NCBI RefSeq assembly: GCF_037975245.1
Contig: NC_092570.1
Span: forward strand, 5,831,001 to 5,895,000
Direction of reading: 5' to 3'
Length of the DNA: 64,000 bases
Origin: Apostichopus japonicus
Lineage: Eukaryota; Echinodermata; Holothuroidea; Aspidochirotida; Stichopodidae
Shown: piece after piece, positions 36,394 through 62,600 of the stretch
Position numbering within the stretch: position 1 is the stretch's first letter
Layout: each line of letters starts with the position of its first letter
Position numbers and translations under genes: made by a program
Notes under the pieces: model-generated
Database searches by the model: none
What the model saw: the letters and a program-made list of their open reading frames with translations, nothing else
Told to the model about the DNA's origin: nothing

Positions 36394-38607
36394 TCAAGGT
36401 ATGTTTGGTCGTACCTTCATCTGGGAGCTCTTGGTATGGAATGGACTGAAGTAGAATTGATCGCTATTCTGACCGTTGAGATTAGAGAAAAAGCAATTAT
36501 TATACCACCAGCCTCCGGTACCGATCACGGCGCAGTTACCATCAGGCCTGTTATCGTTGTCCCGGTCAGAGGTCGAGAATGGCATGTCATTGTGACTAGT
36601 TAAACCATTAACTGTTATGATAAGAGAAAAAAATAAAGGTAGAAAGAAGAAATTTGATAATCAACAATTAAGCTATCTCTACAAAACAAAAATATCAATG
36701 TTGGACAGCAATATCATAAGCTTAATTACATCTGCAATTAAAATAAATAAAATAAATAATATTCAATATAATTTGATTGATTATAACAGATACAGAAACA
36801 TTACCTGGCTGTACTTATGATTTCGTCTCTTTTTCTTCTCCGACTATTACATATCAAGATTAAAATTCTGCTCCAAGTCACCCGTTCCAGATCGTTATTT
36901 ACTTCCCTACAGACTCTCGATAGTCGTAAAAATTGAGTCAAAATTTGCAGTTTTACCGCAATTTTCATATCATTCACCCGGCTGTTTTAAACGAGGAGCC
37001 TCAAATTAAACAATAAGCAGAGGTCATGACCAAAATGGTGGTTATAGTAAATGAAATTGTTACTTGTTTTGTCGTTTTTGGCCACCCTTGTTCCTCTCTC
37101 GCCTTTGAGGGGCTTGCCTGTGTTGTATGTTCTTTTACGTGTTGAGAAAAACTACTAGCATCTACGACAGACGAACAGGCAATCGAGACACAAGATTTTC
37201 AGAGTAAGTCGTGGAATTTTCAGAAATGACACAAATTCAACTTAATAAATTGTCAGCAAAGATATTGAACTCAGTGCAAAGATACTTACATAAGAAAGTT
37301 CCTGATGTGTATTGCCAGTGGATTCGGTAGTTGTCCTGTTCCGCTGAGATCCTGAAGACTCCATAAAGACCGTAAGAACTCATACTAAATGTGTTTGTCA
37401 GTTCGATTCGCATGCTGGTTTCCCTCTGGTTTGTGATGTAATGAACGGCCTCGTTACCCAACCAGTAATCGCCGTTGACGTCGCCAAAGCCGTTCTTGTA
37501 ATCGTCCCAACCGCGGTTGAAGTCCTCACTCAAGTCTTGCCTATTTTGGAAAACCTGGCAAAGGTAAAATATGAGAAAGACGTTGAAATAAAGATATGTA
37601 CACATAGTGTTACCGCAGTGCAATTCAATTTTCAGTTGCATGGTTTTTGGAAAAAAAGGAGATCCTAATTCGAGTCCCAGCAACTTCGTTTTGCCAACGA
37701 CAAAAAACCGCGGCAGGTTGGATCGACGACAAGACGTAACAAGGTTAGATGGTACTATTTTGAATGGTTGGGGGAGCTTGACTACAATAGCAATACCACG
37801 GTTGCAGTATGCTGCTTTGGTGGCAGACATTGTCCCTGATGTTTTAGAAATTTGAACAGACGAAGAAATGTTAATTTTCTGATTGTTATTCTGTGATAAA
37901 ACCTTCCTCTTTGTCATTGGATTCAGTCTAAAATGGAAAAAAAAGGAGACAACAAATTTCCCAACAGTGAAGCTCATATGACGACAAAGATCTTTGTCTT
38001 AATTATTTCATTTTTTCAGGGCAACATGTTTGCAAGTGTTGACACTGACACAATTGTCATCATCAGGTGGATTTCTGTTTTTAGATTTAGCATTTGCGAA
38101 ACCCATCTCCGTTACAGAAAATAAAGGTCGATATAAATTAAAGAAAAACATGAAGAAAAAAATTAAACACACGTGGCTATAGGTGAAGCTATGTTTAGAT
38201 CTGATCAAGCTGTCTCTGATATCTCTCAAGTAGAGCTGATCATAAGAGTCACTGTAGTGATACATAGTGTATACAAGTGTACATACCGTCCAACCACCTC
38301 CATCAGTGGTCATGTCACAGTAGACCTGCAAGGATCCACCAGGGTAGCCTGGAGGGGCGATGGTGTAAACACCGTTGGCCGTCTCGCCGCTAAGCAACAG
38401 TTCATAACAGTCAGCTGGAGCTTGAGCGACCTGCTCGCAAGTTTCACCGTCTCCTTCGAAACCTTCGTTGCAGTGACATCCTTGCACTTCATCCTTCACG
38501 CCACAAAATGCATCTGGTGAGCAGATGTATTCCTCGTCGGTCTGAATGGTTCCATCAATGCATTCGTAGGTCGCTGTGCAGTCATTGTTGACCAGGACTA
38601 TACCTTC
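36394..38607 (-). CDS. E domain fused to fibrinogen-related domain, C-terminal exons
   Basis: Exons 38287-38607 (phase 0 to 0), 37290-37554 (0 to 1) and 36394-36611 (1 to stop). The first encodes an EGF-like unit ([13 protein letters not shown]) and then the start of the FReD ([28 protein letters not shown]). The second has [18 protein letters not shown] and DNYRIHW. The third has FSTSDRDND, the usual calcium site, and [14 protein letters not shown], ending MKVRPNIP. All four conserved FReD cysteines are present. The domain starts near residue 1824 and is about 200 residues, roughly a dozen shorter than usual because the stretch after SNLNG is reduced. The fusion occurs inside a single 321-nt exon. 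Confidence 0.92.
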
Positions 38608-41600
38608 CTGATGAGACAAAGAAGAGAATGAAAGGGTTACCAGTCAAAATTGTAAAGACTTTAACTATGAAACAGTATTCCTCAGTGTAGCAGTATGATT
38701 AACTTACGTCTATGATACCATATTTCTCAGTGTAGCAGTATGATTAACATACGTCTGTGATACCGTATTGCTCAGTGTAGCAGTATGATTAACTTACGGG
38801 GAGATGCCGTATTCCTCGGTGTAGCAGTATGATTAACTTACAGCTATGATACCGTATTCCTCAGTGTAGCAGTATGATTAACTTACGTCTATGATACCGT
38901 ATTCCTCAGTGTAGCAGTATGATTAACTTACGTCTATGATACCGTATTTCTCAGTGTAGCAGTATGATGAACTTAGGTCTATGATACCGTATTCCTCAGT
39001 GTAGCAGTATGATTAACTTAAGTCTATGATACCGTATTCCTCAGTGTAGAAGTATGATTAACTTAGGTCTATGATACCGTATTCCTCGGTGTAGCAGTAT
39101 GATTAACTTACGTCTATGATACCATATTTCTCAGTGTAGCAGTATGATTAACTTACATCTGGAATACCGTATTCCTCGGTCTAGCAGTATGATTAACTTA
39201 CGTCTATGATACCGTATTCCTCAGTGTAGCAGTATGATCAACTTACGTCTATTATACCGCATTCCTCAGTGTAGCAGTATGATTAACTTACGTCTATGAT
39301 ACCGTATTCCTCGGTGTAGCAGTCGCACTCCAATTCTGTGACACACTCTCCGTCCTGTAAGATGGAGCCACCGCTACAAGAACAGGTATCAATGCACCCG
39401 TGGAGACAGTCTTCGCTGCCGTCTAGATCCACACAGCTTGGTGAGCAGGCATTTGCACAGGTTGTATAAGTAGTAGAGCCTGGACATGTCATTTCTAAAA
39501 GCAAAGGAAAGCATCCCTTAAAAATGAAAATTCTGAATTTAATTTCCACTATATTGATATTAAATCCCAATATGGATTGACAGAGGGAAACAAAAATAAA
39601 TGTGTAGGGTCTTCCTTTGTCACCATTATCTCTGTGGCTTATAAAGAGCCTAAAAACTCTGATTATTAAATTGGTATGCTGGTACTCTATCATCAGTAAA
39701 TTTAAATCAAGTAATAGCACAATTGGCAGGTGATCAAGAATTAGCACATGAAAAAATAATCTCACAAACATGCAACCCCCCCACCCCCCTCCCCCTTCCT
39801 CTCACTACCTTGAATGAATTTGTAATTTTATAAACACGACAAAACCTCAAACCGTTACTCACCAGAGTCAGGTATTTCAGTTCTCCAGTTAACGGCTGGT
39901 CCCCCTGCAGCTCGACAAGTCTTGGCATACACGGCGAAGCAATCTACGACGGATGAATTGTCTACACAGAAATCTTGGATGCAGCCCTGGTAGTATGAAG
40001 CAGGATCGACAAAGTCGTGACAATCGGCAAAGATACCTGGAGAAAAAGGCAAAAAGTAATTTATCATTTCAAATTTCAAACTGACGAACGTTGAGAAAAC
40101 ACACGATTACGACACTTACGTTATTTCTGTGTTACGTTTGGTCCTGTACTTGACTTATATTATGATAATGTCACTATTTGGGCTGCATTTACCAAACACA
40201 AGAACCAAAACTCAGATGTACTTGAGCAATTAGATGAAATCATTTCCTTTATGCAACAACAACAAGGAGAAATAATTTCTTTGAGGGTTTTCCATGAATA
40301 TTTCAACATTTCATAGAAACACCAAACTGGTAAAAGTGAAGGGATATTAGGGATAAAGAGGAAGTAACACCTACATGAAGGTAATGAAAGATGTCTATGC
40401 ATGGCTTGTACCTTATGACCAAGTAAGTGTATTACTCAACGTTTGGAGTATGTATATGCATGGCTTGTACATTATGACCATGCTAGTAGTGTATAACTCA
40501 ACATCAAGAGTCTATTACTCCCCATCACGCTTGATGAGGTAGCCCGTATTACATATCTCATAACCAAGCAAGTAGTCTACTACTCACCATTAGTGTTATT
40601 GAGGTAGTGACACCTATATCTCTGGCTTGTACCTCATTACCAAGTTGTCTTCTACTCACCATCATTGTTATAGTGACACCTATATCTGTGGCTTGAACCT
40701 CATTCCCAAGTAGTCTATACTACTCACCATTAGTGTTATTGAGGTAGTGACACCTATATCTCTGGCTTGTACCTCATTACTGATTAGTTATCTCCTACTC
40801 ATCATTCATGTTATTGAGGTAGTGACACCTTATATCTCTGGCTTGTACCTCATTACCAAGTAGTCTTCTACTCACCATCAGTGTTAATTATTGAGGTAGT
40901 GACACCTATATCTCTGGCTTGTACCTCATTACCGATTAGTTATCTCCTACTCATCATTCATGTTATTGAGGTAGTGACACCTTATATCTCTGGCTTGTAC
41001 CTCATTACCAAGTAGTCTTCTACTCACCATCAGTGTTATTGAGGTAGTGACACCTATATCTCTGGCTTGTACCTCATTACTAAGTAGTAATCTTCTACTC
41101 ATCATTCATGTTATTGAGGTAGTGACACCTATATCTCTGGCTTGTACCTCATTTCCAAATAGTCTATACTACTCACCATTAGGGTTGCTGAGGTAGTAAC
41201 ACCTATCTCCAGCTTGTGCCTCATCGCCAGCACACGGATCGGTAGTTTGGGGAATATTGTGACATTTTTGATATGCAACAGTCAGCCAATCAGCACCTAA
41301 GGCAGTTATATCCGTAGTCTACAGACAGTGAGAAAATAACTTTGCAATATATACTTCCACGAAAGCAAAATAAATATTTCACACAGACGTACTTCATGTT
41401 CATACATTGCTATCTTTTATAACTTCTTGTATCATATATTTAAGCACCCCTAGTAACACAATCAACCAGTCCAATCTCTCACCTCCTCCCACAGGTGTAC
41501 ATAGACTTGTCCCATAGCAACCATTAGTCATAGTAATATCATAAGGGCCAGAGGTTATCACTTCTTGGACAGTTTATCTTTGTTTCTGTGGTCACTTATA

Positions 41601-44600
41601 TCCTGGTATAGTAGCAGAACAAGCTCACTGGGTTTGAGAGAATCATCATCACGTTGTGTTGTCTTAGTCCCATTATCCTTAGAACATTATACTAAGTTGC
41701 TTTCATGACTATTGTTAATTTCTTTTACGGCTGACAAGAAAACGAAAGTCGATATTGCTTTCTCACAAAAACAAGACCGCTGAGATTTAAAAAAAAAAAA
41801 AGACGAATAGCAGCAACCGCTGAGTCTGTTTTAATATCTTGAGAACGTTTTTTTTCCTGTGCAGCAGAAAATGTCTGGACGGTAGAAATCCGATCCTGAA
41901 TTTTTGTAAAAAAATAAAAGGAGGCTTACCACAGCTCCGCTCTGCAAGGCCAAATCATCACCAGCATTAGCATTGCAGGTTCCACACATACCAAATACCT
42001 GTCCTCTCAAATCATCAGTTATTTTAATAGAAGCCATGCCTGATTCAGTAAGAAGAATAGACAGCCCAAAGGAAGTTGTAAAGATCTGTGGAAAGGCAGA
42101 GAGATCTGCATAACATATGGACAGTTTATGAAACGCAAACCACCAATCCCAGTCATCGTTTTCCAACCGCTCATAGAAACATAACAAACCATTCCACCTA
42201 CGATTAATTACCACTGCTCATATTTGTGTCAGAGTTCAGGGTCAGGTCAGGTCAAGCTCAGCTAGAAGCATATGCTATACTAGAGACTACCCTAATTGCT
42301 TCATAATCTGGGAAGAAATAAACCAACCGGCTAGCTACAACATTCTTCAAATGTTCACGTTTTCAGGGTTTTAAAAACTGGCTTCATTGATTAATTCATA
42401 TTTGACCTCACATTTAGATTCACATTGTCAAGTTTTATATTAAGGGTGACTTCAAATTTTACCCAAAATCTTGTTCAACCGAAAGTTAGAAGTGAGTTCT
42501 TACAAGTTTGACTTTGACATCTCATATGTAAACCTGACATCAGAGCATCAGCATATATTGTACAAATAGACTGAGCTGAAATCATTTGAATACCCGCTCG
42601 ACAGGTGTCGATTGTTATTTCTGTGACTCTGTATTGAAGGGTGTGAAGACTCGCGCAAAAAGAGACGTCTCTTGCCTAGTTTCCAATGAGGTGTAACAGA
42701 AGTGTTAGACACCACCATCGATCTCAGAAAATACACACACACACATGCTACCGTCGGTAATTAGACACTAGTGTACAGTCAGTACATACAGCTGCGGTCA
42801 ATACCCACAGCACGTACAGTGTAGAAACGATACAGCGATGGACATCTCAGGTCCAGCTAAAGATAACAAGGTCTCATGTTTCATTACTGTCTGCATTTTG
42901 TAGCGACACGAACAAAACAACACTTGAAAGCAACAGAAAGTTAACTTTTTCAGATGGTCGCATGCAGTTTGGGGCGAGTCTCCAATGCCTTTTAAACTAG
43001 CATCTTACTCTCCCTCTGGCCAATTTTTTTTTTTAAAGTACTGCGTCAAATAGACATTATTTTACACATAAATATTCATTCTGATATATATAAAAGCAGA
43101 TCTACTTACCGAGCTTGCTTCCGGAAGGCGGACTACTGTGACAATGTCATCTGAGAAAGTGGTTCCCATTTCTACAAAACCTATTCTTAGTTGCCTGTCG
43201 AATCCCAGACTGTACGACCTGTCTTCGAATTCTAATCTGAACCCATACAGGTCGGTCGGCAGATTTTGTGCAAAGAGAGCGATCACTTCGAATTGCACCG
43301 GTCCAGTTCTGTCGGCGACCACTATATACTCGCATCCGATGTTGTGTTGGTAGCTGACCAGGTCAAACGTCCGGAAGCGAAGGTTGTTCCAGATCAAGCA
43401 CTCACAATCAGCTATAAAGAAATCAAAGTCAAAGGATGGAATTTAGACAGCATTTTTGTCTTGAAGTCCAGTAGAAAAAAGAAAAAGAAAAACAAATTGA
43501 GTATTGATAGAGTGCTTGTGATCTTTCGGTGGGCTACCTATTCTGGTCTGTCCACAGGCATCTCCCCTTGAAGCAAATGCAATGCAGTGGAATATATGGG
43601 GCAGAGACTGCTTTAACAATGGTGTAGTACATAGATAGCTTACTTTATATACCATACAACATCTGGTATGAGTTGTTATTATATCATCTATCTAACTGAC
43701 CAGAATTGCATGGGTTCAAATGAACAGGAGTTTAAACTGAGCTTTAATTTGCTAGTAAACATTAAGACATACACAAGGGAATTGAGAGATAGGTTACAGC
43801 TTGGGAACAATAAATGTCAATGGGCCCCTTTCTTGAAGTCTTTTAGAAATTCATGGTTTTCAGAATTTTTCTGGTGGGCAAAAGATCTGACCAGATTACA
43901 TCCTTTACTCATGCCTAACTATAAAATGTATTTATTTATAATTGGTATTTTAAATTATGAATATGATCAAACATTATTTTTGATCCCATTGTCCTCCAAG
44001 CCCCCTAAATGACTCTGACCACTGAAGCTGCAGACCCCTGACCTACTCTTGCCAGGTTTGGAAATGGAATAAATCTGATGTGGTACCTACCCAGCTCACA
44101 CTCTTGGCCATTGAAAACGTATCCAAGAGAACAATAGCAGTCTCTGTTTCCAGATTTGACCTCGCAGGAGGCCTGAGCAGAACACTGGTAGGTCTCACAG
44201 TCCAGCTCTCCCAGGATACATGTACACTTTTGTGAACATCCTTCATTGATATAGACAGAGCCAGGCTGAAAGAAGAGACACATGAAAACTGGTACATTCC
44301 ATTCTTGAGGATGTTACCCAAAAATAATGAGTTGAATACACGTATCACATATGATGAGGTAGAGCATACCTCATATAACCAATACATACCTCTATTACAT
44401 CCTTAGAGTAGTGTGTGCCTCATTTAATCAATGGTTAACTGTACATTATATGAGGTAGTATATACCTCATGTAACCAACAGAGCATTATATATTAGTTAT
44501 GAGGTATGACCTACTGTACTTCATAAACACCACATACTTCTGTTATATCCTTGCAGTAGTATTACATACCTCATTTATTCATAGATTACTTGTTCATTAT

Positions 44601-47600
44601 TGAGGTAGTATATACATCATATAACCTACAAACCATTATATATTAGCTATGCGGTATGACACACCTAAATACAGACTTCTATACTATCATCACAGTCAAA
44701 TAAACTTCACTCATAAAATAGTCACTGACTAATTTCACAGTATCTTTGAGGTAACTTATACATCACACTACCAATGTAAACATAACATATTGACAACAAT
44801 GAACATGTGATCTTTATACCGAGATGTAGGTAATCACACTACCAATGTAAACATAACATATTGACAACAATGAACATGTGATCTTTATACCGAGATGTAG
44901 GTAATCACACTACCAATGTAAACATAACATATTGACAACAATGAACATGTGATCTTTATACCAAGATGTAGGTAATCACACTACCAATGTAAACATAACA
45001 TATTGACAACAATGAACAAGTGATCTTTATACCAAGATGTAGGTAATCACACTACCAATGTAAACATAACATATTGACAACAATGAACATGTGATCTTTA
45101 TACCGAGATGTAGGTAATCACACTACCAATGTAAACATAACATATTGACAACAATGAACATGTGATCTTTTTACCGAGATGTAGGTATCCTCTGGAGTGA
45201 TGCATCCGCATTCTCTCGGATAAACACATTTATCTCCATCTAGAATCTTTCCTTCTGGACAGACACACGTCTCTACATTTGGAAGGTCACAGGCGATGGG
45301 ATTATCCCTGCTGGAGCAGGTGGTGGGACAGGCCGGGCCATCCGCTGTGTATATCATGCCCTCGGGACAAGGTCCAGCTGCAATTACATGAGACCAGAGC
45401 CAAGATTTAGGACCCAAATTTATACACAGCTAGACTGGATCAAAACCTAGACGTGGTGGTGCAGATATCACCCAGGTCAGGTTTGGACAGAGATCACATT
45501 TGAAAACACACACAGTGTCGTGAATGATAATCATTTTATATGAACTCCTAATATCAAACATGACTGATGATCTAATGTGACATATGTATTTATGTACTTG
45601 AATAATTTACACATGGCATTAAATGTTTTATTAATAGTAATCGTGTAACAAAACATGTTTAATATGAACCAGACATCTAATTTTTACTACTTTTAAACTT
45701 TACATAATATCTTATTTTGAGGGTCATAATAGTCATGCATAGATGAATTAACTGTTCGCAAATTTTGGCAGTTTTAGCATCCTGAATTCTGGGCAGATGA
45801 CCTTTCAACAGTATAGAATTAGAAAATAACGCAACAGTGTATTCATAGCTGCAGCATTTCTCCTGAACATCAAATATCTGACTGCCCCAAACCTGAGATC
45901 AACTTGTTTTACAAACCATGTGCATATATGCCACAGATAAGTTTAAAACATCTAGAAAATCTGCCTCTAGCAACTTTAGCAAACTAATCTAAACTTTGAC
46001 AGAAATTACACATGACCTCTGTAACCAAGACGACAGCGTAAGACACTGATATTAATGACGTTTCTTCGACTTGAGTTTTCAATTTGAATAGAATCTACAT
46101 TACCGTTTCATGACCAAATTTACCATAATGATATTTCGAAAGCTAGATAAAATGAAGATGCAAATGGACTCACGGCACTCTGCTACTTCTTCCCACCACT
46201 GTCCTGGGTCACCACCGGCATTGCGACAGGCGGTCGTAAATGCTTCTAAGGCAGCACAGAATGAGTCCGTCCCCTCGATGGCACAGGTATCGTAAACACA
46301 GCTGTTGTAATACGAATCAGGGTCCACAAACTCATGACAGCTGGCAAATGGACCTTAAACAACAACAGAGAAAGGAAATTGAGTTGATCTCTGCTTTATA
46401 TTGGAATTAGTAAATTCTGAAGATGAGACTTTTAATTTCTATTATTCCGTTTGGATCGTTGCTTTGGGAAGTTTTAAATTTTAAACTGTATTCTTTTTCT
46501 TTTGTAGGAGGAACTATGATATAAGCCATACTTGAGATAAACCAGGCTTGAGATTGAGTGTGGAAGGGTATATGGTGTGGAAGGGGATAGGGTGTGGGAG
46601 GGGATAGGGTGTGGGAGGGGATAGGGTGTGGGAGGGGATAGGGTGTGGGAGGGGGAGGGGGAGGGGGATAGGGTGTGGGAACAGGAGAGGTCAGACCAAA
46701 TTCTCACTGGTGGTGAAACTGACACCTGTGGGGCCACCATGAAGGGTAAAAATCTTTGCTGCGAAAGATATTGGTGGGGGTGGGCATGGGGGGAAGGATA
46801 TTACTCCCCTGGTCCTGAGGAGCTCTGCTGCTGGAATGGGAAACCCAACAGGAGCTGGCAGGCTAATGTTTAGCAAGTATAGCAAGGCAGTCCCGTGACA
46901 CCACAGTGATAAACTGTACATGTTAAATAATGGTCTTTGACATCTCACAACAAACTGTTCTGGGTGTATACCATTAAATATGACAGATAATATTTTTAAT
47001 AATTGAAGGGCAGTTAAACTCACCATCAGCTTTCAGGATGTAACAAAGATTCTCTGCATCTACTTTGACATCATCTTTGCCATCACAAGGATCTATCCCA
47101 GAGTCTGGAGTACACTGCTTATCACCCACAGTCCAGGCATTACCAAATGCTGAAGCAGATTCCGCCTGTGAAAGATACCACAAGTTTTATTAGACAATGT
47201 AAAACAGTATCTGAACAAAGCGTAAAAGTATGGATGATGGGGCATAGAAAACAATTCACATGACAAAACATTTGAGCTGGAAACAATTCACAGTATTGGA
47301 ATATTTCATAACATATTGGAACTTGTTTTTGTTTATTCCATAGGTTTTTTCACCTCCCAACTGTAGCTGTTTGGCAAAGAACCCTGCTTTTTTTTTTGTA
47401 ACGTCACAGACTGACACAGAGACATCAGAGAAAGAGAGTGACTAATTTATACCAGGTTGTTTTTGGGTACATATTTATTCACAGGTGGGAAATTCAGAAT
47501 AAGGGAAAATTTCCCTAGACCTGTTCCTTGTCCTTAAATGAATAAATCAAGTCCAACTGCTTACTGAATATCTTCTGGATGCATGAAAAACGAAACTACT

Positions 47601-50600
47601 CAATCCAACATATCATGTTAAAGGCATTTGCACACAATGATCACGAGATGAACAGTGGTTGCACATGGGTGAAAACAGACAATCCTTGGGGGTGGGGTGG
47701 TGTATAAGTCATTACCGAGAATTGTTTGACTAATGAGGTTCATCAAGAGGACTTATACTTAAAGGGGTTGACCTATCAAATGCCAATGTCAAAAATTTAA
47801 GGGGTAAACTTACCAGTTGTCCATTGGGAAGGACAAATTCATCGGTTGGGTCCTTATTGCAGGTACCACAGAGACCACAAAGTACCTCGTAGTAGTCAGG
47901 ACTGACCTCCACAGTCAGACCGGCATCAGCATAGGTGAAGGTCATCTTCAGACCAAAGTGAGTGACCACCATCTGCGTTAAGGGTGAAAGTAATCACATT
48001 TACACATTAAAACCTCAAGCCAAGACTGAAACGTTGACTAGTAATGCCCTTAAATATGCTAGAGCACCAAATTATGGTCACTCATATTCAAATTTTGACA
48101 AAGTTAGACTCTCAAAAGCATTTTCCGTCAGTAAGAAATCGTTTTGAAAAGAGCAAAGAGGGATTTTGGCCAGAGCAGCATGCAGTCAAAAATGTGACCT
48201 CAGCATTATAAGTCCTGTAATCCACCCACTGAGCGCCCCAGCTGTTAGTTGGTGGCGATCCCCCCTGTTTCTTCACTCATAATTTGAGATGACATTAATA
48301 ATTAGTGTTGGTTTTAATGAAACACAACAGCCTATTATCTCAGTGTCACAATTTCTTAATATTTACACTGATTAAATTAATATTGGTACTTTAATGAAGT
48401 AATATTTTATATTTATTAAAATTATTATTTCGAATCCATAATATAATCTACATCTTAGTACAAATAATTTTCAAAACACAACTTCTCTAACCCCAAACCC
48501 CCCTCTCCTCACTTGTTCCATGTTCCTCCCCCCCCCCCCTTAAAAAGTTGTAGAAATATGTTTCATTATGTAAAAATAGAAAAGTAATAAATTTTCACTC
48601 ACTATTTTCCCTGGTGGTAGGAGCGTAATGGTTACATGTTCTGTACCTCCTGTCGTATAAGGTAGAGTCTCTGCTACCCCACCCACCTTCATGACACCAG
48701 AGCTGAGTATCTCATAGTCCACGTTATTATACTGCAATATTACTCGTCGCAGGTAAGAGACCGACTGAGATGGTAGGTTCTTGTCGTTACTACCGATGAC
48801 TCTGAAGGTTGGCAGGTCACCATGGTCGCAGGTTTCCACGAGAACGTATTCGCAATCTCCTTGGAAGTCGTAGGTCTTGCCGTCGAAGGTGATGTAATGG
48901 GGATCTCCCCAAACTTGACAAGAACAAGGCTCTACAAACAACAACATAAAGTTTAAAAAAAATGTGTTTGTTATCAAGCATTTAAGCATTCAGCTTGTTT
49001 TATATTTAATTGTAAAAAGCTTTACCAAAAAGAGTTTTTGCATGAAAGTATGCCATTTTATCTTAATTTATTCATTATCTAATCACTCAGTTACTGATGA
49101 ATTGACGAAGGCACCTCTCTGTCCCATTCCATACCCATGTGTCATCTGCTGTTATTCTTATACAAAATTCGACAAACTGTATGATATTCTCTCAAATAGT
49201 TCAAACACATCTGATGGACAGAGATATTGTAGCTTCAAACAGAACTTGCAACTTTACATAAACATTCGTATTGAGTTTTATCTGCAGATTCAGTTAGATC
49301 CAGGTTATATTTATTGTAAACGCATTGAATAGCCATCACTAGGGGAAGTTGCGTGCCTTCAATTGATCCAGTACTACAAAGTGATGAAGATGTTCCATTT
49401 CATATATTTTTCTTCTTTTTTAGCATGTGCAACACCTCCTGACTAAAATAAAAATCCAATATTTTCAAGTGTTCGCATCTAATTTATAGCGACAGTTTTA
49501 AAAGAGAAGAAAACAAACAGTCAACAATTACCATCGGAGCACTCTTGTCCGTTGAACTTCAACCCTTCCTTGCAGAAACATCCTCTCTCTGCGCCAACGA
49601 CCTTACATTCTTCGGTACCACGGCAACCGTAAGCTTCGCATTTTTCTTCCCCGTCCACACAGGTGCAGCGAAGAGAGCAATCGTCGTATGTGTACACATC
49701 ACCTTGCTGCAACGAAAGGGTCGTTAATTTACAAATCGTGATATGGCAAAGGAAATCGACAAGTGGCTCTCTTACTACTGAAGGATGTAACTGTTGGTAT
49801 TGTTCATCAGCAGGTTGCTACTCAAGGCCAGAGTGGTTAGTGCTTAGTATGATGTCATCACTCCTTAAGCTCAGTTCATCTGATAACAAATTTAGGTCAT
49901 TTCCATGCAGCAATGCCATTTTCTTTGCACAATCCTTGGAAAGTAGTTCACCACTGTGACAGTGGCTTCTCATTGGCAGATTTTCATATCATTAAAATGC
50001 ATAATTTGCATAGGAAGTTATTTTTGACATATAACTGAGCAAGCTATATTGTTTTCATTTATTCATCGAGCATGCTGTCATTTGCTACCTGGCTACTGGT
50101 AGACATTTGGCCAGAATGTACACAGAGAACAGAAAGACAGATATGACATGCTAATGTGTACAGTCCCAGCAGCATGGTCCCTGGATGAGTTGTGGTGACC
50201 AACAACAGGTGAAAAGAAAAGCAACATATAGCTATAAATAGCAATAACCAGAGTGCATAAGAGCAATACCCATGGAAATGACATCAATCAAACAGAAAAC
50301 ACAATTCCAACATTTTTGCAGTCATCTATGCTCAAATTGTCCAGGAATGTAAGAGTAATTTGAAAATTTCATTTCAGTTGTCAGATTCTCGATGAAAGTT
50401 AACTTTAAATGAACTTTTAACTCACAGATATGTAGACACCATTCTGTAATTTGCAGCCACAGTTATAATCAAAGACACATTTTTCACCATCCAGGACTTG
50501 TCCTTCTGGACACTGGCAGGTCTCGATGCAAGTCTCTGCGCACTCTTCGGGACCATCCGGGTTTTGGCAAGACGGTGGACAGGCAGTGCCACAATCTGTG

Positions 50601-53492
50601 TACTCCAGACCCGCTGGGCAGGGAGCAGCTGAAAACATGACAAATAAATATGACAAACAATTCTTCAAAAAAAAATCTTGAAAAAGGGGAACATGATTGC
50701 TGTAGAATATGAGATGTGCATCCCTTATGGGGAGCTGGTCCCCCTACCGGGGATAACATGGGTGGGATCAGCAAGGCCCTATGGGAGCAGCTGGATGTTA
50801 ACAGATGGATGACACATAGTTTGTTTTTGACACATAGTTTGTTTTTAAATCCTGATCATGGTTAACAAGAATTCTGTGGAAGTGAGATGTGCATCCCTTG
50901 TAGGGATCTGACCCCCTACCCTGGCTAACATGGGAGGGATCAGGGGGGTCTAAATATGGCCTGTGGTAATGTACAGGGGTAAGATTCAGTGTGGGATAAT
51001 GAATTGCGGACCTCAGGATATTCTGAGGTGTTTGCGATAAGAGACAACATGAATACAACTGAAAATGTACAAATGTATAGAAGGACTAAATGCATTCCTC
51101 CTCACAACCTCCAATAAAGCTATTTAAAAAAAAACTATACCCCAGCAGGACTGGAATAGTACTCACCACACTCAGGGACGTAGGTCCACCATGATCCAGG
51201 GCTACCCCCTCGGTTCCGACACAAGGTGACGTAAGCTTCGATATTTTTACAAATGTGCTCCGTCTCTAAGTTTGTCAAGCAGACATCGTAGACACAGTCA
51301 TCAAACAATTCTTGAGGATCTAAGAAATCCCTGCAGCCAGCTAGGGGACCTGGGTGACCAAGATCAGATACACACAAAATGTTAGAAACAATTCTGTAGA
51401 ATATAATGCAAACTTGTGTGAAAGCTGCTGTTCTATATACCAGTCAACGAATCCTTAAAACTCAATTGTGCAAATAACTTAGATTTTGAAATTTGGCACA
51501 AATCACGGCCATAATCAACTTTCATAATGCCCAGCTAGCAGGGAGTTCCATAGTTACAAGGAATCCCACACACAGGATGATGTGGAGTCCATAATCAACA
51601 GCTTCAAAGGGCATGGAGAGTTATATGTCTGAAAAAAATCATTATTAATTATGACTTACCAAACTGATCTACCATAACCCAACACTTATCAATCGCTGTG
51701 GCCCTATTAGGATCGCCCTCAGGACAAGGATCAACAGGTTCAGGTGGCTGACACTCTCTGTCACCAGTCACCCAGGAATTACCAAACTGTGCAACGTTTC
51801 GTGCCTAGGAATGAGAAATGTATAGTAAATACAGGAACTTGGTCTCCGCACAGCATACGACAAGATACTTAACCCTCATTGGCTGATCAATCAACATTCT
51901 AACTCCCATTGATGGATCAGCTTTATTCTGAATCAGCAGGAAGAGAAATGACGAAGACTAAAATGGAACGTTTCTTTGGTCACTATGAAAACTTCATCGG
52001 GAATTAAAACTGAGGGAAACACAAGTGCTTGGGCGGGGAAAAACAAGGTTTTTTTTTTATATCCTAAAATGGTCATATTGCTATCATGCGAGACTCCAAA
52101 ATGGGCTATTTTAAGAATTTCCAAGAAAAACTATAGCGGTATGCTTACTATAATAATAATAATTATCAAAGAATTACAAGGCAGGCATGTTATTATTGCA
52201 CAAATTCCTACTCTCAGAAACCACCACTGATATTTCCATCCCATGGACGAGAGTATTTGTAGTTCAGCATCTGACCACTTTTTCAAGTAACGAGGGAGGT
52301 GAAGGTACCCCATCCAAGAGAAATTGTTTCAAAGCCCCATTTTGCCACTTTGCAAACCAGAAAATACCAAATCCACTGATATGACTCTACTCAACAACAT
52401 TGCACAGCAGCAATTTGAATACATCGAGAGAATATGGTTCCTGGTGAAGCTTTGAACAGGAGACCTAGTGGTTGTGAGGCATATTCTATAACTGCTGTGT
52501 CACGCTATCACCCTAAGCTAAGCAACCATTGGGTTTATAATTGGCCAATCACTTAAAGACATTGTTATTCGTCAGTAGGAGAGGTCGCCCTACTAGTAAG
52601 AATCACCTCTATGACTGGTCAAGCCTGCATATAAAAAAACAATCCTCCTCAAATTTACTCGAGCATTAATAATTTGTTACTTGATACACTGCATACACCA
52701 CCCTAAGTACTGACATTAGGATTCATCCTTGAGCCACCTAATTAATTGACCAGCCACCGTATGATTGTAAACATAAGTGCTCTATTAAATGTTCAGCACT
52801 ACTTTCCTGTGTGTGAAGACAAGTTTGGCTTGACCACTGACATAGTACACTGTGTGTTTAATCATGAATTTGTGCAGAGGAGCGTTCAGTATAGCTAGAA
52901 TTACCAACTTGCGCCCGTAGATACTCAATCTCCCCAGTTTTTGGCCAAAAACAGGGGACTCTGGTGGTATTTGCTATACGCAGGGAAGATCGTAATTTCA
53001 GAATGCATTGAAGTACAATAGTGTACTTTTGAACCTTTTCTATATAAACATGTCCAGAGCATCAGAATGATAGCAACAGAAGCTTTAGCTCCACATGACA
53101 GCCACGTCACACTTTGTCTCAAGTCCCTGCAGTCTGTTTGGAAGTACACTAAAGGTCGATGGGTAGCATCCAGAAATGTTATTATATGCTCACCTTTAGA
53201 ATGAACTCGATCTTAATTTTAACTTACCTTTTGACCATTACGCATCGTCAGATCGTCTCTCCTGTTTCCATTAGCCGAACCAAACAGTCCACAGACTCTC
53301 TCTGTAAATTCTGGTGGAAGCCTGACTACAATATTAGCATATTGGGTACGTTGCCAAACGCTAAACTCGCTGTTAATGACCAGGCCAAAGTCGGACGTTA
53401 TTAACTGAAGAAAGGAAAGAAATAGTCATTTGTAGGTTTATTGTCTGTAAACATAGTAAATAACATGTATATATATATATCTCTATCTCCAC

Positions 53493-53539
<47 letters not shown>

Positions 53540-53658
53540 AATGAAAATCGTAATGAGTTGGAAAATCAAGAACAGTGAAAAAACTTTCAGCCTCCACTGG
53601 GATTCGAACCACGGGCCTTCCGCTTACATATAACGGATTACATATGTTTGTAGAACTG

Positions 53659-53690
<32 letters not shown>

Positions 53691-56600
53691 TATTAGAGAA
53701 AACCAGAGAAATAAGATATGACTCATAATTGACAAATAAGGAGTAAAGTTTAAGAACATATATTGGAATTTTCGGTCCCCTTGGGACCTTCGTCAGCAAT
53801 ACTTGGCAGTCGAATGAAAAGTACAAAATGTAACACAATGAAAGTATGACGCTAGATAAGTGTAAATTGCATTGATGGAATAGGAACAAATAAACCATGA
53901 CTATACAGGAAGCGGATTAAGGAGCAAAGAACGGATTACATATGTTTGTAGAACTGATAGTTGTTAAGTGGTCCTTTGGTGATAGTTGTTAATGGAATCC
54001 TGCAAAATAATTTTGCAGGATTCCCAGTTTCCAAAATATTTTCAATCTTCATAGTCATTCTCTCAAAAACCTAAAATGTATATTAATTGCCTCGTACTTC
54101 AAATACGCAACTGAACGTAAGTAAACGTTAAGAAATCGATTGGATATTTCGTATTAAGTCTCACATCACCGGCCTTGACGCTTATGCATGGTCAGAGTGA
54201 CAGACCTGTTTGAGTTGTGCAAGGCACGGCTCCTGCAGGTAACTGACGCTTATCTGCTCCCCACAAAGATTTATAAACCAGGCAACATTGCAGAGTTGAT
54301 TTGCTACACGGTCCTCTTCTTCCCAGCTGTTTACTCTCCTTTTCCTTTCCTGTAATTCCTCTGCTGTTTAATATCGGATCAAAATCAAAAGGCTGCGGCC
54401 CTGCCATAGAACCTTCTCTGTTTTCTTTCGTTTTGGTTCTAACGAAATAGCTGTTTACTGAATCTACTTTAGTACCTTCAGTGCCTTCTTTATTCCTTTT
54501 AAGTTAACACATTTTCTTTCCCGATCTACTATAAAAGTGTATGGAGAACACAACAGACAGAGAGGAAAACTGCCAACAAATCTATTGACCAAAGAGAACA
54601 AAGCTTTGGTCTTTAACCAGCTGCAGTCTGTGATTGACTTGAGCTTGACTTACCCACTTATTGCGTGGAACATACGTCATAGTAACACCATCTCTTGAGA
54701 AGGGCAGTGTGACCGCCGCACCATCTACGAAACATCCACGCGCACCCTTGACTTCAAAGACGATTCCTCTGTAATGTAGTCTATAAGAGGCAGTCACGGT
54801 GACCTTGAATGAAGGTCTTGGCTTGTTGAAGTTACCGATCAGTTCAAAGTAAGGAAGGGCTTCTCCCGTGCCACAGGTTTCTACCAGCGTATATTCACAG
54901 GATCCTTGGTAATCAAACTTCAATGAATCGAAGGAGAGGAAATGAGGATCGCCGCTGAGACTGGCAGAGATGTCACCTGTAAGAAAAAGGGAGAGAAACC
55001 ACTGAAGATTTATAAACAATTATGAAAAGGATGAATAATTATAGTTAGAACCGTGAATATATAGTTCTGGATAATATCATTCTTAAAGCTAGATCTCTGT
55101 CAAAAAACAAAACAAAACGGATTGTTCTCTGAATACTTACTACCAGTACAAGTCTGTCCATCACCACTGTAACCATGGCGACAATAGCAATTTCTCATTC
55201 CATCTTTGAGTTCACAGTTTGCGTTCTCGTCACAGGAGTACGGATCGCACTCCAAGCCTGTAGTACTACAATGACAGATCTCGTCACAGTTATCCGATAT
55301 GTATCTGTCCCCATCCTGCGAGGTTAAATTATAACATCAAAATGGTTTGACAGTTTATTTGAGAACTCAACTACCTAATTCTTCTCCTCACCCTCCTCCC
55401 CTCTCCATTCCTTCTTACCCCATCCCCCACCCCACAACACACCCCTTAAAATGATAAGAATTTATAATCTCATTACTGAGTGATGCAATTCAAGATCTGC
55501 TGTATAGACCCCAACTATAGCACACTATCATGGGAAAGTTTCTTAAGATTACGTAATCCACCTGCCTTGGTCGTAAAATGACCTCTTTTTACCAATTATT
55601 CTGCAATGCCTTCTGCATATTTTTGTCTTGTATGAGGGTCTTTGTGTGAATGCTGTACGATTAACTACACTGTAGACATGAACATATTTCCACGCAGTGT
55701 TTACACAAAGAGCGAAATGGTGATAAGAAGCTATGCAGGCTAATTGTAGAGCCTGCGGTCGATTTTCGACCGTGGCAGTTCGATAATTTTATCACAAAAC
55801 TTTCTTAGCTATAAGGGTGCTATGATTGGAGACAATAAAGCAGATCTTTAAAATGGAAGAAGTTTAAATTTCAATGATGCCTATTTTGTTTTCTTTTTTT
55901 CACAGCTCATATAGGATACAGGTCATTCCAGACTTGTACAGTTTGCAAAGAATAAAGAAGATATCAAAATTTCTTGACACATTTCATTCTTTTACTGCGA
56001 ATATGTCCAAAAAAAACCCACTTCATTATGACAGATCGTCTACGCAATAAACTGTTTGGAGTGACAAGGAGCTGTCGACATCTTGCCAACTCTGTGACTG
56101 GGCTGTAATTGAATAATCGCTATGTCATTTTGAGAATTCTCAGTATGTTTTTTTCTGTAAATTTCTGGAATCCTGTGAGCAAAAACAGCTACCATATGCA
56201 AAATTTTCTACTTTTTTAAACTTAAATCTTTAAAATATCTCATTTGCATATTTTACCTCCATTAAATAGTTGCTAGGGGATACGCATCCACAATCGCCGG
56301 GGTCGATGCACTCATCGTTATGGAGAATGTTAGGAAACTGGCAGAGACAGGTCTCTATGATGGTGTTTGGCTGACAGTTTTGCTGTCCCGTGGGATCGTT
56401 GCACGTTGGTTGACATCCCTCACCGAATGGAATCAATATCGAACCATCTGGACAAGCTTTGAGTGCTACCAAAAAAACAAAACAAAAGTTGGCAGGGTTA
56501 CTCTTACGAGTGGATTTTTTTTGTTTTACTTTAGGCTGAAAACCCACTGAAACCCGCTGAAAACCCGCTGAAAAACCCTTCTGCAAAACCCACGGCAAGT

Positions 56601-59600
56601 CATTTCAAAGGTAGATTGATATGACAGGAATATCGCAGCCCAGTTTAATAGTTGCCTCGACTCACAGATGATATTTTTGCTTTGCACGCTGCTGTACCTT
56701 CGAAACCATACTTTTATTTAAGAAACTACATCCTGCGAAGTTAGAGAGTATATTGCAATCGCAAGAATAAAGTTATCATGAATCTGTGTTGAACATAACC
56801 AGTTAAAATTAGTAGCTATATGTAAAGCCAAGCTAGTGGCATCTCATTATGAAATATAATAATTATTATTAATTATTATTATTATTGTAATAATTATATA
56901 AATATAACAAAATCACTTCAATAGCTAGCTGCCTTATGGACCGTGTCAGAGAGAAAATCTACAGTAGCTGCAAGTGGACTTGCAGCAAGTCTGAATCAAT
57001 GTCAAATAACAGACACAGTTACTACCTATGCAAACCAATAGTGCCTATTGTTTAAAGGTATTGAAGACTCGCGCACAAAGAAACGTCTCATGCCGGTAAT
57101 CTGACCTAGTTTCGAATGAGGTGTAACAGATGTGTTAGACACCACCATCGATCCCAGAAAATACACATACAGCTTCCTACCGTCGGTAATTAGACACTAG
57201 TGTACAGTCAGTACATGCAGCTACAGTCAATACCCACAACACAGTGTACATAGCAGCGTGGACATCTCAGGTCTAGATAAAAGATAACAAGGTATCACGT
57301 TTCATTACTGTGTGCATTTTGTAGCGACACGAAAAAAAAATCACTTGCAAGCAACGCAAAGTTAACTTTTTTCAGATGGCTGCACGCGGTTTAGGGCGAG
57401 TCTTCAATGCCTTTAAAGAAATGCAGAGCGCAGAGCGATCACATTCCGACGCAGCATGGATGCAATGAGGCTGCAGCTGCCTCAGCATTTTGACTTTTGA
57501 CAGAGTGCCTCGAGGTCTTTTTACGTTCATACTGATGGATGTGATTCTGGGTGAGGAGAGGGTACCTGCTGGTTCCTGGCAGTGAGGGGCCTGGGCCACC
57601 CAATCTCCGGGCACTCCACCAGCCTGTCTACATTGTTGGGCGAAGAGTTTCATAGCTGAGCAGGACATGGCGGGCTGTTGTGACATGCAGACATCCTGCA
57701 CACAGGCATCATACATGTCTTGTGGAGTTTTGAAATCACTACAGGGTGAAAACGGTCCTGGGGAAAAAAAAATGAAACACATACATAGAAAGATAAAAGA
57801 AAACATTTTGGTCAAACTTTATTTATTTTGTATGTCTTACAGTTTGCAATAAACATTAGGTCTTTGGTGGTAACTACCAAACATAGTAAAAAAATAATTA
57901 AAAAAATGTAAAAAGAAGTAGAAAGAATATTTTAAACAAATTCTACTCTTTCTTCATTAAAAAAAGCAAGTATTGAATAATTATACATCTGCATCCCATA
58001 ATTTTTTTTTTTTATGCAATAATTTTTGGCTACCTTGCTGCTCACTTTTCACCAATTGTTCTGTCTTGCTGAAATTTATTCATGTTGTTAATTATCCAAC
58101 TATTAACACATCTGGCCAAATCTGTCTAATTATAACCTCGTTGTCTCCATCTTAATTTTAGCCTGCCTCTCATGAGAGATCCTACTAGGATGGAGAAACA
58201 TGACGGCTTTTCGATGATATCATGTTCATTCATAAATAAACGACACATAGTAAAAGTTGCTATCTCTTCTAAACTGCTATAAGAATGTGGTTCTAAAAAA
58301 AAAATGGTCACACTCTTTTTACTTTTTATAAAATTAGTATATTTTGATATAAAACCTGACAAGAATGATGAACAAACCTTTATCAAAAATTTCAAATTTC
58401 ACAACTGTTTTTTTAAGTTTTTTATGTGCAATGACGTGGAAAGGATGATCATTTCAGTAGGTGTTTTGTCTTCAAAAGGAGCCAGAAAAATTGAGCTTAT
58501 TCATCAGAGCATCATGGTGTCTATCAAAGATTTAATGCTTTACCTGGAACGGCTAACAGAAGACTGCAGAGGTCTTTGCCCTGCGTTTCTCCATCAGAGC
58601 CTGGTTTGCAGGGATTGTCTGTCACGTCCTCTGTTCCGCATGTCTCGTCATTTCTCCAGGCAGCTCCGAATGCTTCCACGGAATCGGCCTGAATCGCAAA
58701 CAACAGTAATTTATTACTGCAAGTGTAACACTCCCAGTGTCCAGCAACTATATCACACACATCACAGGTGAGAATATCCCTATAAAAATACTACATGTTG
58801 TTTAATCATGTATACTTTGTAAGTCATATGTATATTATATCCACCCCCTTATTCCCCCTTATGTCTCTGTACATGTACCACACATACCATACCATACATA
58901 TAATACTTACAAGTTGTCCATTAGGTAATGTTAGTTCATCAGACTGTGTCTCTGTACATATACCACACATAACATACATATAATACTTACAAGTTCTCCA
59001 TTAGGTAATGTTAGTTCATCAGACTGTGTCTCTGTACATGTACCACACATACCATACCATACATATAATACTTACAAGTTGTCCATTAGGTAATGTTAGT
59101 TCATCAGACTGTGTCTCTGTACATGTAACACACATACCATACCATACATATAATACTTACAAGTTGTCCATTAGGTAATGTTAGTTCATCAGACTGTGTC
59201 TCTGTACATGTAACACACATACCATACCATACATATAATACTTACAAGTTGTCCATTAGGTAATGTTAGTTCATCAGACTGTGTCTCTGTACATGTACCA
59301 CACATACCATACCATACATATAATACTTACAAGTTGTCCATTAGGTAATGTTAGTTCATCAGACTGTGTCTCTGTACATGTAACACACATACCATACCAT
59401 ACATATAATACTTACAAGTTGTCCATTAGGTAATGTTAGTTCATCAGACTGTGTCTCTGTACATGTACCACACATACCACATGTTTGGCCAGCATGTTGG
59501 GCGTGTACATGGATCTCGGCCTTTTGTAAGTTGTCAAACATCACAAACAGTCCAAATTTGGCAGCGATTGTCTAAAGACAAACAAGAGATTGAGTATGTG

Positions 59601-62600
59601 AGATATGAAAGTTTGTTAAAAACATGTTATTACGTATAAATTCAGTTTTGATTTTCTGACTCCAATATCCCTCCTTGCATGCCAATAAAACACGACCACT
59701 AAGTCAGAATTTGATCGTGAAAAGACGAAGAGATAACGACAAGGAAGGGGTTAATCTTTGACGATGAAATTATAAATTTTTTGATAGAGAGGTCAGCTTA
59801 AAATTTTCAGTAGGTACTAGTCCTCACTCGCAAACCGATCTTTCCTTATCCGCCGCTCCTAATCGTGGCTCAATCTTGAGACATAATCACATCTATGAAA
59901 GCAAAAATTTTCATCGTAGGAGTCAAAGAAAACTCACTGTAAATCCAAAGACTTGATTTCCAACGGTGATCCCCTTCTCCTCGTCTACGTAGGGCAAAAA
60001 CACTCTCCGTCCGTTCACTTTGACTTTGCCTCCGAGGAATATCTCGTACGAGACGCCGTCCAGCTCCAGCCTCAGGTAACGGAGATACGAGACCTCGTCT
60101 CGGGGAGCGTTCTTGCTGAGTTGACCGAACAGCTTAAAGTCCGGTAATTCTTCTGAATCTCCGCACTTCTGAGCCAGGATGTATTCGCATTCTCCGTGGA
60201 AGTCATAGGCCAACTTGTCAAAAGTTGTGAAGTGAGGGTTGCCAAACACGCTACACACGCAAGGACCTTTGTAAGTGATATAAACCAAAGACACTTACTA
60301 CCATATTACTATAGATGCATGGCAAGGGTTACATCTCGCATATGGAGCACATCTGGTTAGTTCTATGATGTAAGTATGGCGTCATGTTCACAATGATATA
60401 AAACACCGAAAAACTGTTTAAACCTTGAAAATCTTTAAATATGAAAGACAAACATTGCGAGCTCCGCTTTAAGACTTTTCAGTTAAGATAAAAGGAAGAA
60501 AAAAGGTTACCAAGTCACAGTCTGTTACCCACCTACATCTACCTCTTTTAAATATACAACCTTTCACCATTACAGGTAATGTTCACCTGCATTTAACCTA
60601 CACCTACTTCTTTCACATGTACCATCTTCCACCATTCACATGTACTTTTCACCTGCATTTAACCTACACCTACTTCTTTCACATATGTACCAACCTTCAC
60701 CATGTAAAGGTTGATGCTCACCTGCATTTAACCTACACCTACCTCTTTCACATGTACCATCTTTCATGACATATTGGTCAGGGCAGTAGCAGTTCCTGAT
60801 TCCGTTCTTCACATCACATGTGGCTTTACTAGGACAGGTATTTGCTGAGCAATCTAATCCTGTCTCCGTACAACGACAGACCTCGCTGCAGTCCTCATTC
60901 ATGACCTCTTCACCTTGCTGTCAACAGAAGCAAAGACTTATCTTATAAAAAGAGAAATAAAGATGCTCTCATTTCCCAATCAACTTTGTGTTCACATCTT
61001 TTCATTATTTCAGAGCGTGCAGAGTAAGATTGATCATTCATTTAGTCAGTGTACAGTTTTGATGTCAGTGATTGTGTGTTGCAATTTAAACGTCAAGGTC
61101 TTCAAATGAATCTCAATATTTCAAAATTTTGACTCAAAACTACCTGGAGGAGGATGGGGGGGGGAGGTGTGGGGGGGGGGTACAGTCTTATGGGGGTACC
61201 AGTCAGAGGCATGAAGTTTGACATAACTACCTGGAGGAGGATGGTGGGAGGAGGGGGTTGGGAGGGAGGGGGTACAGTCCTAGGGGGTACCAGTCAGAGG
61301 TATGAAGTTTGACATAGCTACCTGAATATAACCTCCAGTTGGTATTTTACAACCACATTCTGCTTCCGGTACACATCTATCTACATCTAGCATCAGACCC
61401 TCGGGACAAACGCAGACGTCCTCACAGAGGAACTTACACTCATCAGCTAACTGCCCCGCACACGTAGATTGACAGGCTGATCCGCAAGGATCGTACACCA
61501 TATCGACGGGGCAAGGCGGTTCTGGAACAAGCAGGAGTAATTCAAACAGAAATTAAACCATTAGCAATCCGCCACAGAGGACAAACAATACATAATTAAG
61601 ACAACAGAGTTCTGTAATAAACAGTGCTCGGAGAGAACATGTTGGTTCTGAAACAGAATCATGACTTATATGACAAGTTGGTTCTAACACAGAAGCACAA
61701 GTACTGTAGTTAGTGCAAAGGGTGAAGCTCAAGGATTTACAACAGTGCTAAGAGAACACGGTGGTTCTGAAACATGAGTAAGTTAATAGGCTGATTCACA
61801 AGGATCAAACACTATTCAATACAAAGACAAGTTGGTTCCAAAGCAGATGCACTGCTAAGTTCATCGAGTGATCCTCAAGGATCCTAAAAAGTGTGTTAAG
61901 AGAAGATGATGGTTCTGAAACATGAGTCAGTTGATAGACTGATTCACAAGGATCAAACACTATTTTAATACAAGACAAGTTGATTCTAAAGCATATGCAT
62001 GTGTAGCTAAGTTCATCAGGTGATCCTCAAAGATCTATATACCATTCATCATTCTGGATCAGGAGGACAAGGTTAGCTGCACAGCATTTCTATGTTATAC
62101 AAAATCAAAGAATCAGGGTCCATAAAATCTTGAGATAAGTACATTTCTTTAAAACATTATGTCGGACGGTAGCTGATGTATGTACTGTACAACCACAAGG
62201 ATGAAAATCCAGACAGGAATAAGAAGGGGGGGGGGGAGGAAAACCAGAAATATTTGCCCGCATATTTACCAACAAAGCAGGAAATAATTTAAAGTTTGTG
62301 GTTTTGAAAGCTCTGAATTAAAAAAAAAAACTCCTGTGTAAGAAACGCTGTGTAAAAACTGCAAAAAACTGTGTAAAAACTATGTAATAAAATCCTGTGT
62401 AAGAAAACTGCTATACATCATATTACACTAAGTTAATACATATAGCTATGTTGGACTACTTTGCGTAGCACTTCGAATTGCGTTATTCCGGAAATTATTC
62501 ACCGTAAGTTGATATATTTTTTATATTAATATTTCAGCTGCGTCAATTTAATTCTTCACATTTTAAGGGTTTTGTCATTTTATTGTCATTGTAAAGCGCT

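Follow-up and report, generated by a model that had tools for sequence, protein, structure and literature searches.

Mirages, for which Canestro et al. 2002 is reportedly the original paper, are a class of tandem repeats already published for lancelets. Furthermore, a minisatellite of the IFI6 (6-16) gene, reportedly described by Turri et al. 1995, is said to carry multiple splice donors, the extra donors being used and giving in-frame products. As far as the accessible text of the lancelet papers goes, mirages are minisatellite-like tandem duplications across an exon-intron boundary, with units of 10 to about 160 bp and splice signals in many units; their length varies between haplotypes, they show concerted evolution in clusters, and they were described in Adh3 and in the globin genes BflGb6 and BflGb9 (PMC3087553). 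Repeats over splice sites of lancelet PGBD5 were likened to mirages in the available part of another report, which also names TnC (PMC3902484). Introns have also been described as arising when a segment that contains splice signals is duplicated in tandem, in a source likewise accessible in part (PMC2891723). Here, we analyse a window of Apostichopus japonicus DNA (the whole 64,000-nucleotide stretch C10:5831001-5895000 of a 671.6-Mb, 35-contig assembly), in which a gene made of VWD-C8-TIL(a)-EGF modules with a fibrinogen C-terminal domain at its end carries tandem arrays at six splice donors. These arrays are very probably mirages, i.e. boundary-straddling tandem duplications followed by gain and loss of whole units.

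Within the literature searched, which covered few subscription papers, the term mirage was found in two lancelet papers alone, boundary minisatellites in echinoderms yielded a single paper, on an abalone gene, and no title on such arrays was among the matches listed for sea cucumbers. The 2017 sea cucumber genome paper mentions Tandem Repeats Finder (TRF), and the terms minisatellite and satellite are absent from the accessible part of its text (PMC5638244). Besides the window, our comparison covered the rest of this gene (hereafter gene A), two sister genes named B (C10:6676001-6719000) and C (C10:6796001-6839000), a 45-kb part of a C15 gene that shares their exon plan, and dynein regions picked by Pfam hit alone (14 of 17 loci, leaving out those of C18, C12 and C21:18.14 Mb).

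Arrays at the splice donors of gene A

Gene A has 30 exons inside the window and continues past its edge. A splice-scored, phase-continuous and stop-free model of these exons keeps the reading frame open across 2,027 codons. A six-exon module (VWD1, VWD2, C8a, C8b, TIL and EGF) is repeated with nearly fixed exon lengths and phases, and the spliced peptides score above the Pfam cut-off for VWD, C8, TILa and Fibrinogen_C and below it for EGF_3. Homology to the other modules led us to reset five boundaries of the model, including the donors of two array junctions (59415 and 60742).

Arrays were called by TRF and their exon content was read from the 30-exon model. In addition, each junction was given an edge score by comparing 20 exonic and 20 intronic nucleotides (nt) with the rest of its own intron. 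Six of the 29 donors are repeated in their own intron (edge score 20.5-40), the remaining 23 scoring at most 10, and none of the 29 acceptors is (no acceptor edge score above 11). At these six donors, the tandem unit spans the exon-intron boundary; five arrays carry 13-64 nt of exon and the sixth 3 nt (Table 1). The array-side exons (TIL 200-203, C8a 142, VWD2 156 and EGF 175 nt) are not longer than array-free exons of the same type, a comparison that is partly circular given the homology resets.

A sequence-only reading of the window had counted seven exon-edge arrays in this gene, six on the exon 3' end or GT donor and one on an acceptor and exon 5' end. The arrays are present where it placed them, but six of them, not seven, are junction arrays. 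The six donor arrays hold, with the nuance that array 6 includes only about 3 nt of exon and was not reported when TRF was run on the opposite strand. The putative acceptor array (61745-62035) had to be discarded: it lies more than 220 bp from acceptor 61522, and its score of 10.5 does not exceed what shuffled sequences reach (maxima 11.0-13.0; five window sizes, 100 shuffles each), even though the acceptor resembles part of the repeat (18 nt, 3 mismatches). TRF also found the arrays devoid of exon sequence that this reading had reported elsewhere in the gene and window.

Table 1. Coordinates, within the window, of the gene, its junction arrays and the exons that they adjoin
Feature	Position	Strand	Details
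Whole gene A	36397..63769	-	splice model and Pfam
Array 1	38665..39323	-	45-bp unit x14.7; exon end 39292-39323 (32 nt) and donor GTAAGT at 39291
TIL exon whose 3' end is part of array 1 unit	39292..39494	-	gene model
Array 2	40557..41224	-	76-bp unit x9.1, copy spacing 65-79 bp; exon end 41177-41224 (48 nt) and donor GTGAGT at 41176
C8a exon whose 3' end is part of array 2 unit	41177..41318	-	gene model
Array 3	44762..45187	-	71-bp unit x6.0, 98% match; exon end 45175-45187 (13 nt) and donor at 45174
TIL exon whose 3' end is part of array 3 unit	45175..45377	-	gene model
Array 4	58862..59479	-	85-bp unit x7.3, 96% match; exon end 59416-59479 (64 nt) and donor GTAAGT at 59415
VWD2 exon whose 3' end is part of array 4 unit	59416..59571	-	donor reset by homology
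Array 5	60531..60766	-	66-bp unit x3.6, 82% match; exon end 60743-60766 (24 nt) and donor GTAGGT at 60742
EGF exon whose 3' end is part of array 5 unit	60743..60917	-	donor reset to 175-nt exon class
Array 6	61138..61324	-	91-bp unit x2.1; donor GTAGCT at 61321; 3 nt of exon, essentially donor only
TIL exon of array 6	61322..61521	-	acceptor at 61522
Intronic repeat	61745..62035	-	148 bp x1.9; fails as junction array

The arrays have the anatomy and the length instability of mirages, and their effect on splicing is predicted from frame and exon-length class. Signs of concerted evolution among their units are mixed. They differ from lancelet mirages, as the accessible text describes these, in several respects: the host is an echinoderm; six donors are concerned in the window and seven in the available gene, TRF arrays crossing donors only there; up to 67 units are found at a dynein donor; and the sister genes show an exon end exchanged with an intronic unit. 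Arrays touch donors only in the window and both types of predicted boundary in the dynein regions. Each repeat carries a splice donor, as is said of IFI6. In contrast with IFI6, of the 94 decoys, i.e. the GT-bearing extra donors of arrays at six junctions of A and five each in B and C, 93 would shift the frame or follow a stop and give no in-frame stop-free product, the single translatable one being at an EGF junction of A (+69). Tandem duplication involving a splice signal is shared with the published intron gain; however, the introns concerned in A. japonicus, with their phase, are common to the modules and to the C15 paralogue, and no new intron, absent from the related genes or modules, was seen.

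Two other minisatellites of the window lie outside the gene, at 5031-5754 (210 bp x3.5) and 25764-26464 (51 bp x13.7).

Copy number and exon ends in the sister genes

Along the full available gene A, the edge score reaches at least 15 at 7 of 42 donors and at 1 of 42 acceptors, the latter scoring 16.0 with no TRF array across it. The counts for A, B, C and the C15 gene left out exon hits that lacked both splice sites or measured 100 nt or less, array pseudo-exons after the VWD2 exon and one pseudo-C8a hit in B; in A, the final EGF hit was swapped for the fibrinogen-domain exons of the window model. No C8a exon was found in the first module of A, B or C.

B and C carry arrays at five of A's seven donor junctions, with other unit counts. 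For A, B and C respectively, these are 10.0, 5.1 and 11.1 at the 42-bp junction, 3.6, 6.5 and 6.5 at the 66-bp junction, 7.3, 12.1 and 8.1+3.1 at the 85-bp junction, about 9, 14.7 and 15.8 at the 72-76-bp junction and 14.7, 2.0 and 3.9 at the 45-bp junction. Copy numbers thus differ 1.7- to 7-fold from sister to sister, a length instability like that of mirages. Two weaker two-copy donor duplications occur in B and C alone, and each of these genes has one acceptor that scores 17.5, where a 33-bp array stops at the acceptor.

The junction of array 3 (TIL donor 45174) has one copy of the 71-bp unit in B, in C and in a fourth relative (L033). Since the unit is single-copy in B and C, array 3 grew in place in A, which agrees with the earlier suggestion that arrays were seeded on the junctions themselves. 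An imported or mobile minisatellite that landed at exon edges would explain adjacency alone and is barely credible: the units contain the local exon end, and for the one unit searched (71 bp, best candidates scored) all 8 of the matches listed lie on C10, in the window or in sister genes.

Assemblies are known to go wrong at tandem repeats, and arrays could have been collapsed or expanded by the assembler. Furthermore, B and C differ at only 61 of 7,306 nt in exons of equal length, so that one of them could be a misplaced allele. This explanation, named beforehand as one that would dispose of the arrays, is nevertheless highly improbable because sister genes share five of the seven donor arrays, whose lengths at a given junction vary among the three gene copies, and because the assembly is probably a PacBio HiFi one. 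A PacBio HiFi assembly of A. japonicus is described, in the accessible part of its report, as having 671.6 Mb, 23 chromosomes of 18.21-46.02 Mb and 34 scaffolds (PMC10344927).

The 42-bp junction illustrates how an intronic unit and a coding exon end trade places. Its intron measures 490 nt in C and 238 nt in B. Over the stretch that begins with the final 26 nt of the exon and runs to the acceptor, B matches at 264 of 264 nt the sequence of C lying 252 nt, exactly six units, further along, and the preceding 119 of 119 exon nt are identical between the two genes. The sequence that forms the exon end and donor in B is thus, in C, the sixth intronic unit, or vice versa. The resulting coding ends are CNTIIDPL in B, CNALIDPL in C and CNAIIDPL in A, with two amino-acid differences between B and C. 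The 30-nt variant of B's exon end has three exact matches in the genome, namely B's exon boundary and two intronic units of C. A contraction in B, turning an intronic unit into coding sequence, would be the simpler direction because C's exon has the two bases of A that B lacks. Moreover, one site of the 85-bp array is C in A's exon and in 5 of 6 units (glutamine codon) and G in the exons of B and C and in all 21 units (glutamate codon). Over the array-shared exon ends, B and C differ at 5 of 190 nt vs. 83 of 7,782, so that accelerated change is not clear. The exchange between exon end and intronic unit is a new element, not described in the accessible text of the lancelet mirage papers.

Other features of this family deserve mention. 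In array 3, the authentic donor at 45174 is GTAAAAAG, compared with GTATAAAG in all five intronic units and in both sister genes B and C; as a donor, the exon copy scores higher than the unit version. In the intron after VWD2(18) of sister gene C (C10:6814001-6823000), about 1.9 kb of other sequence, probably an insertion, interrupts the 85-bp array; the units on either side of it lie +595 and +2581 from the donor. VWD matches occur every 4-5 kb or so over 125 kb at C15:15816924-15942045, apparently within a single very large gene built of modules of this type, of which 45 kb were included in the comparison. Close to the VWD matches of C1:4710562-4752883, the stretch C1:4703609-4705359 has two clusters of tandem CAGGTGAGT about 40 bp apart; these are possibly further donor arrays in another VWD gene.

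Origin of the arrays and their frequency at junctions

The arrays would start with a chance tandem duplication of some 40-230 bp across an exon-intron boundary; whole units would later be gained or lost, most likely via unequal exchange or slippage. A duplication across a donor would yield the order exon, donor, exon end, donor, intron, in which the first donor closes an intact exon and the extra copies are intronic. Since the first donor is kept, the intact exon and the growth into the intron follow from geometry and no directed growth is needed. The exon-proximal donor is expected to be the one used in RNA, and the duplication would be tolerated because splicing at a later donor would in nearly every case cause a frameshift or run into a stop. 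The arrays may consequently be near-neutral. They are nevertheless not inert for the protein, since the last 4-21 codons of the exon form a terminal unit exchangeable with an intronic one in a single step. Hence, the sequence-only reading was right that donor arrays extend only into the intron and leave one exon intact, but this pattern loses the significance attached to it, being a consequence of geometry plus selection. R-loops, fork breaks or repair by spliced RNA, which it had invoked, are not needed to account for the arrays.

Alternatively, extra donors could be kept by selection, either to rescue or tune splicing or to regulate expression via stop-containing transcripts. Indeed, 65 of the 94 decoys score at least as high as the authentic donor (on a donor scoring matrix), and five arrays persist across sister genes. 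We give such buffering little credence: almost all decoys are out of frame or follow a stop, as stated above; at one junction of C, 11 of 13 decoys have lost the GT that the authentic donor keeps; and the differences in copy number between sisters fit unconstrained repeats.

Junction arrays would be frequent because minisatellites are dense in these introns and the introns, once their arrays are subtracted, are short. The frequency of arrays at junctions was compared with two nulls. In the uniform-seed null, a unit of length p has a probability of about p/(pre-expansion intron + p) of covering a donor. Only introns of 80 nt (60 in the uniform-seed test) to 4,500 nt were considered, and the uniform-seed test also disregarded arrays reaching past a whole neighbouring exon. 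The set for gene A comprised 10 TRF arrays, without array 6 and with the 42-bp array located outside the window. Six of these 10 are at donors vs. 1.36 expected (P=4e-4, post hoc). The corresponding figures are 5 of 9 vs. 0.87 in B and 5 of 13 vs. 0.79 in C, neither being independent of A, and 1 of 6 vs. 0.30 (P=0.27) in the C15 gene.

In the dynein regions, cores with fewer than two paralogues and less than 45 bits were dropped, and a boundary with no GT or AG was placed at the limit of the homologous core. Eight of 129 donors and 8 of 129 acceptors are hit there; a strict annotation gives 6 and 4 of 97 for the two edge types (10 of 194 edges together), and an early subset of six regions had given 5 of 55 donors and 2 of 55 acceptors. 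A bias towards donors only, as a general rule, was therefore rejected. The 22 dynein arrays include 5 donor hits (P=0.05) and 6 acceptor hits (P=0.012) vs. 2.25 expected per side, array D7 counting on both sides; 2 of the 6 acceptor-touching arrays are at an edge without AG, the boundaries being predicted. Restricted to phase-consistent introns, the hits become 4 at donors and 3 at acceptors among 15 arrays vs. 1.92 per side (P=0.10 and 0.29). Taken together, 11 of 28 distinct arrays of the C15 gene and the dynein regions touch a junction vs. 5.0 expected (P=0.002, with hand-rounded probabilities). One dynein heavy chain array of C4 (L020:238-3361), with a 47-bp unit repeated 67 times, begins 22 nt within an exon and occupies almost all of the 3.2-kb intron.

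The coverage null gives another answer. Donors lie in arrays in 7 of 42 cases in A (17%) vs. 15% of random intron 40-mers, and in 8 of 129 cases in the dynein regions (6%) vs. 10% of random intron positions. These two nulls disagree and both were kept. Junctions are hit somewhat above uniform seeding, beyond the density effect; the excess is clear at donors in this gene family and modest, and not fully secured, at junctions generally. The junction excess advanced by the sequence-only reading is thus supported, post hoc, within the gene and mild in the dynein genes, but it does not extend to a donor hit rate above intron coverage, and dynein acceptors are hit about as often as donors.

An excess of this kind would be expected if donors were mutational hotspots at which pausing, U1 or R-loop structures, or donor-like microhomology provoke tandem duplication well above background. 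The figures for gene A and for the pooled C15 and dynein arrays go in this direction, but gene A was chosen for showing the pattern, the phase-consistent dynein introns yield nothing significant, dynein acceptors are hit as often as donors and donor hit rates do not exceed random-position coverage. Genome-wide motif counts also bear on this explanation. Three tandem MAGGTRAGT at two spacings have 396 and 592 matches vs. 189 and 193 for the reversed motif (single copies: 26,642 of the motif and 31,450 of its reverse), but three tandem CAGGTAAGT have 65 vs. 54 reversed. The scrambled motif and its reverse, at the wider spacing, have 185 and 437 matches (single copies: 11,679 and 15,360). Tandem rates per single copy at this spacing are 2.2% for the donor, 0.6% for its reverse, 1.6% for the scramble and 2.8% for the scramble reversed, the last two bracketing the donor. 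Among the matches listed on C1-C8, a count by eye found 24 distinct arrays for the donor, 9 for the reverse and 7 for the scramble. At this level the donor differs from the reverse (P=0.0025) and from reversed plus scrambled motifs (P=0.0055) but not from the scramble (24/26,642 vs. 7/11,679, P=0.44). Hence, motif counts that favoured the donor over the reversed motif alone lost their force once the scramble and its reverse were added, and they speak neither for nor against enrichment. Overall, we consider hotspots unlikely as the source of the arrays.

Several observations weigh against chance duplication followed by unit gain and loss. At donors 60742 and 59415, the automatic model first took a donor deeper in the intron, and use of the exon-proximal donor is predicted from frame and exon-length class. 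Exon and array also disagree in places: two sites of B's exon at the 42-bp junction match none of B's own 4 units, one site of C's exon there matches none of C's 10 units, and A's exon at the 45-bp junction has a base present in 2 of 12 units. For the 42-bp junction, the register shift described above accounts for the disagreement. The C15 gene shows hits at 1 of 53 donors and 0 of 53 acceptors; therefore, A's gene family stands apart and its arrays may not be due to chance duplication alone. No TRF array crosses any acceptor in A, B or C, and symmetric seeding predicts more. The ends of the array-3 duplication show no clear microhomology on inspection, and a third sister gene (L032, C10:6965301-6967300) has a partial second 71-bp copy about 170 bp downstream, with unrelated sequence between. 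Lastly, the assembler might have set two alleles side by side as B and C; this would alter the age, not the exchange.

Meaning for intronic repeats and coding sequence

In the accessible sources, mirages are described from a handful of lancelet genes. The seven donors of one A. japonicus gene and the unrelated dynein genes suggest a wider phenomenon, which can be measured genome-wide. The six-unit register shift between the near-identical B and C is a worked example of a trade between an intronic repeat and a coding exon end, and such exchange offers a concrete route by which minisatellites change proteins. Moreover, the arrays may be viewed as natural constructs in which the spliceosome has to select one of many consecutive, equal donors.

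We tentatively suggest, as a possibility that may well prove too broad, that a sizeable share of junctions (10 of 194 dynein edges under strict annotation, 7 of 42 donors in A) lies inside minisatellites and that the last codons of the exons concerned can be recycled. If this is true, introns would store variant exon ends, the loss or gain of whole units in one event would swap an exon end together with its donor for an intronic copy, and protein sequence would turn over via repeat exchange, not point mutation.

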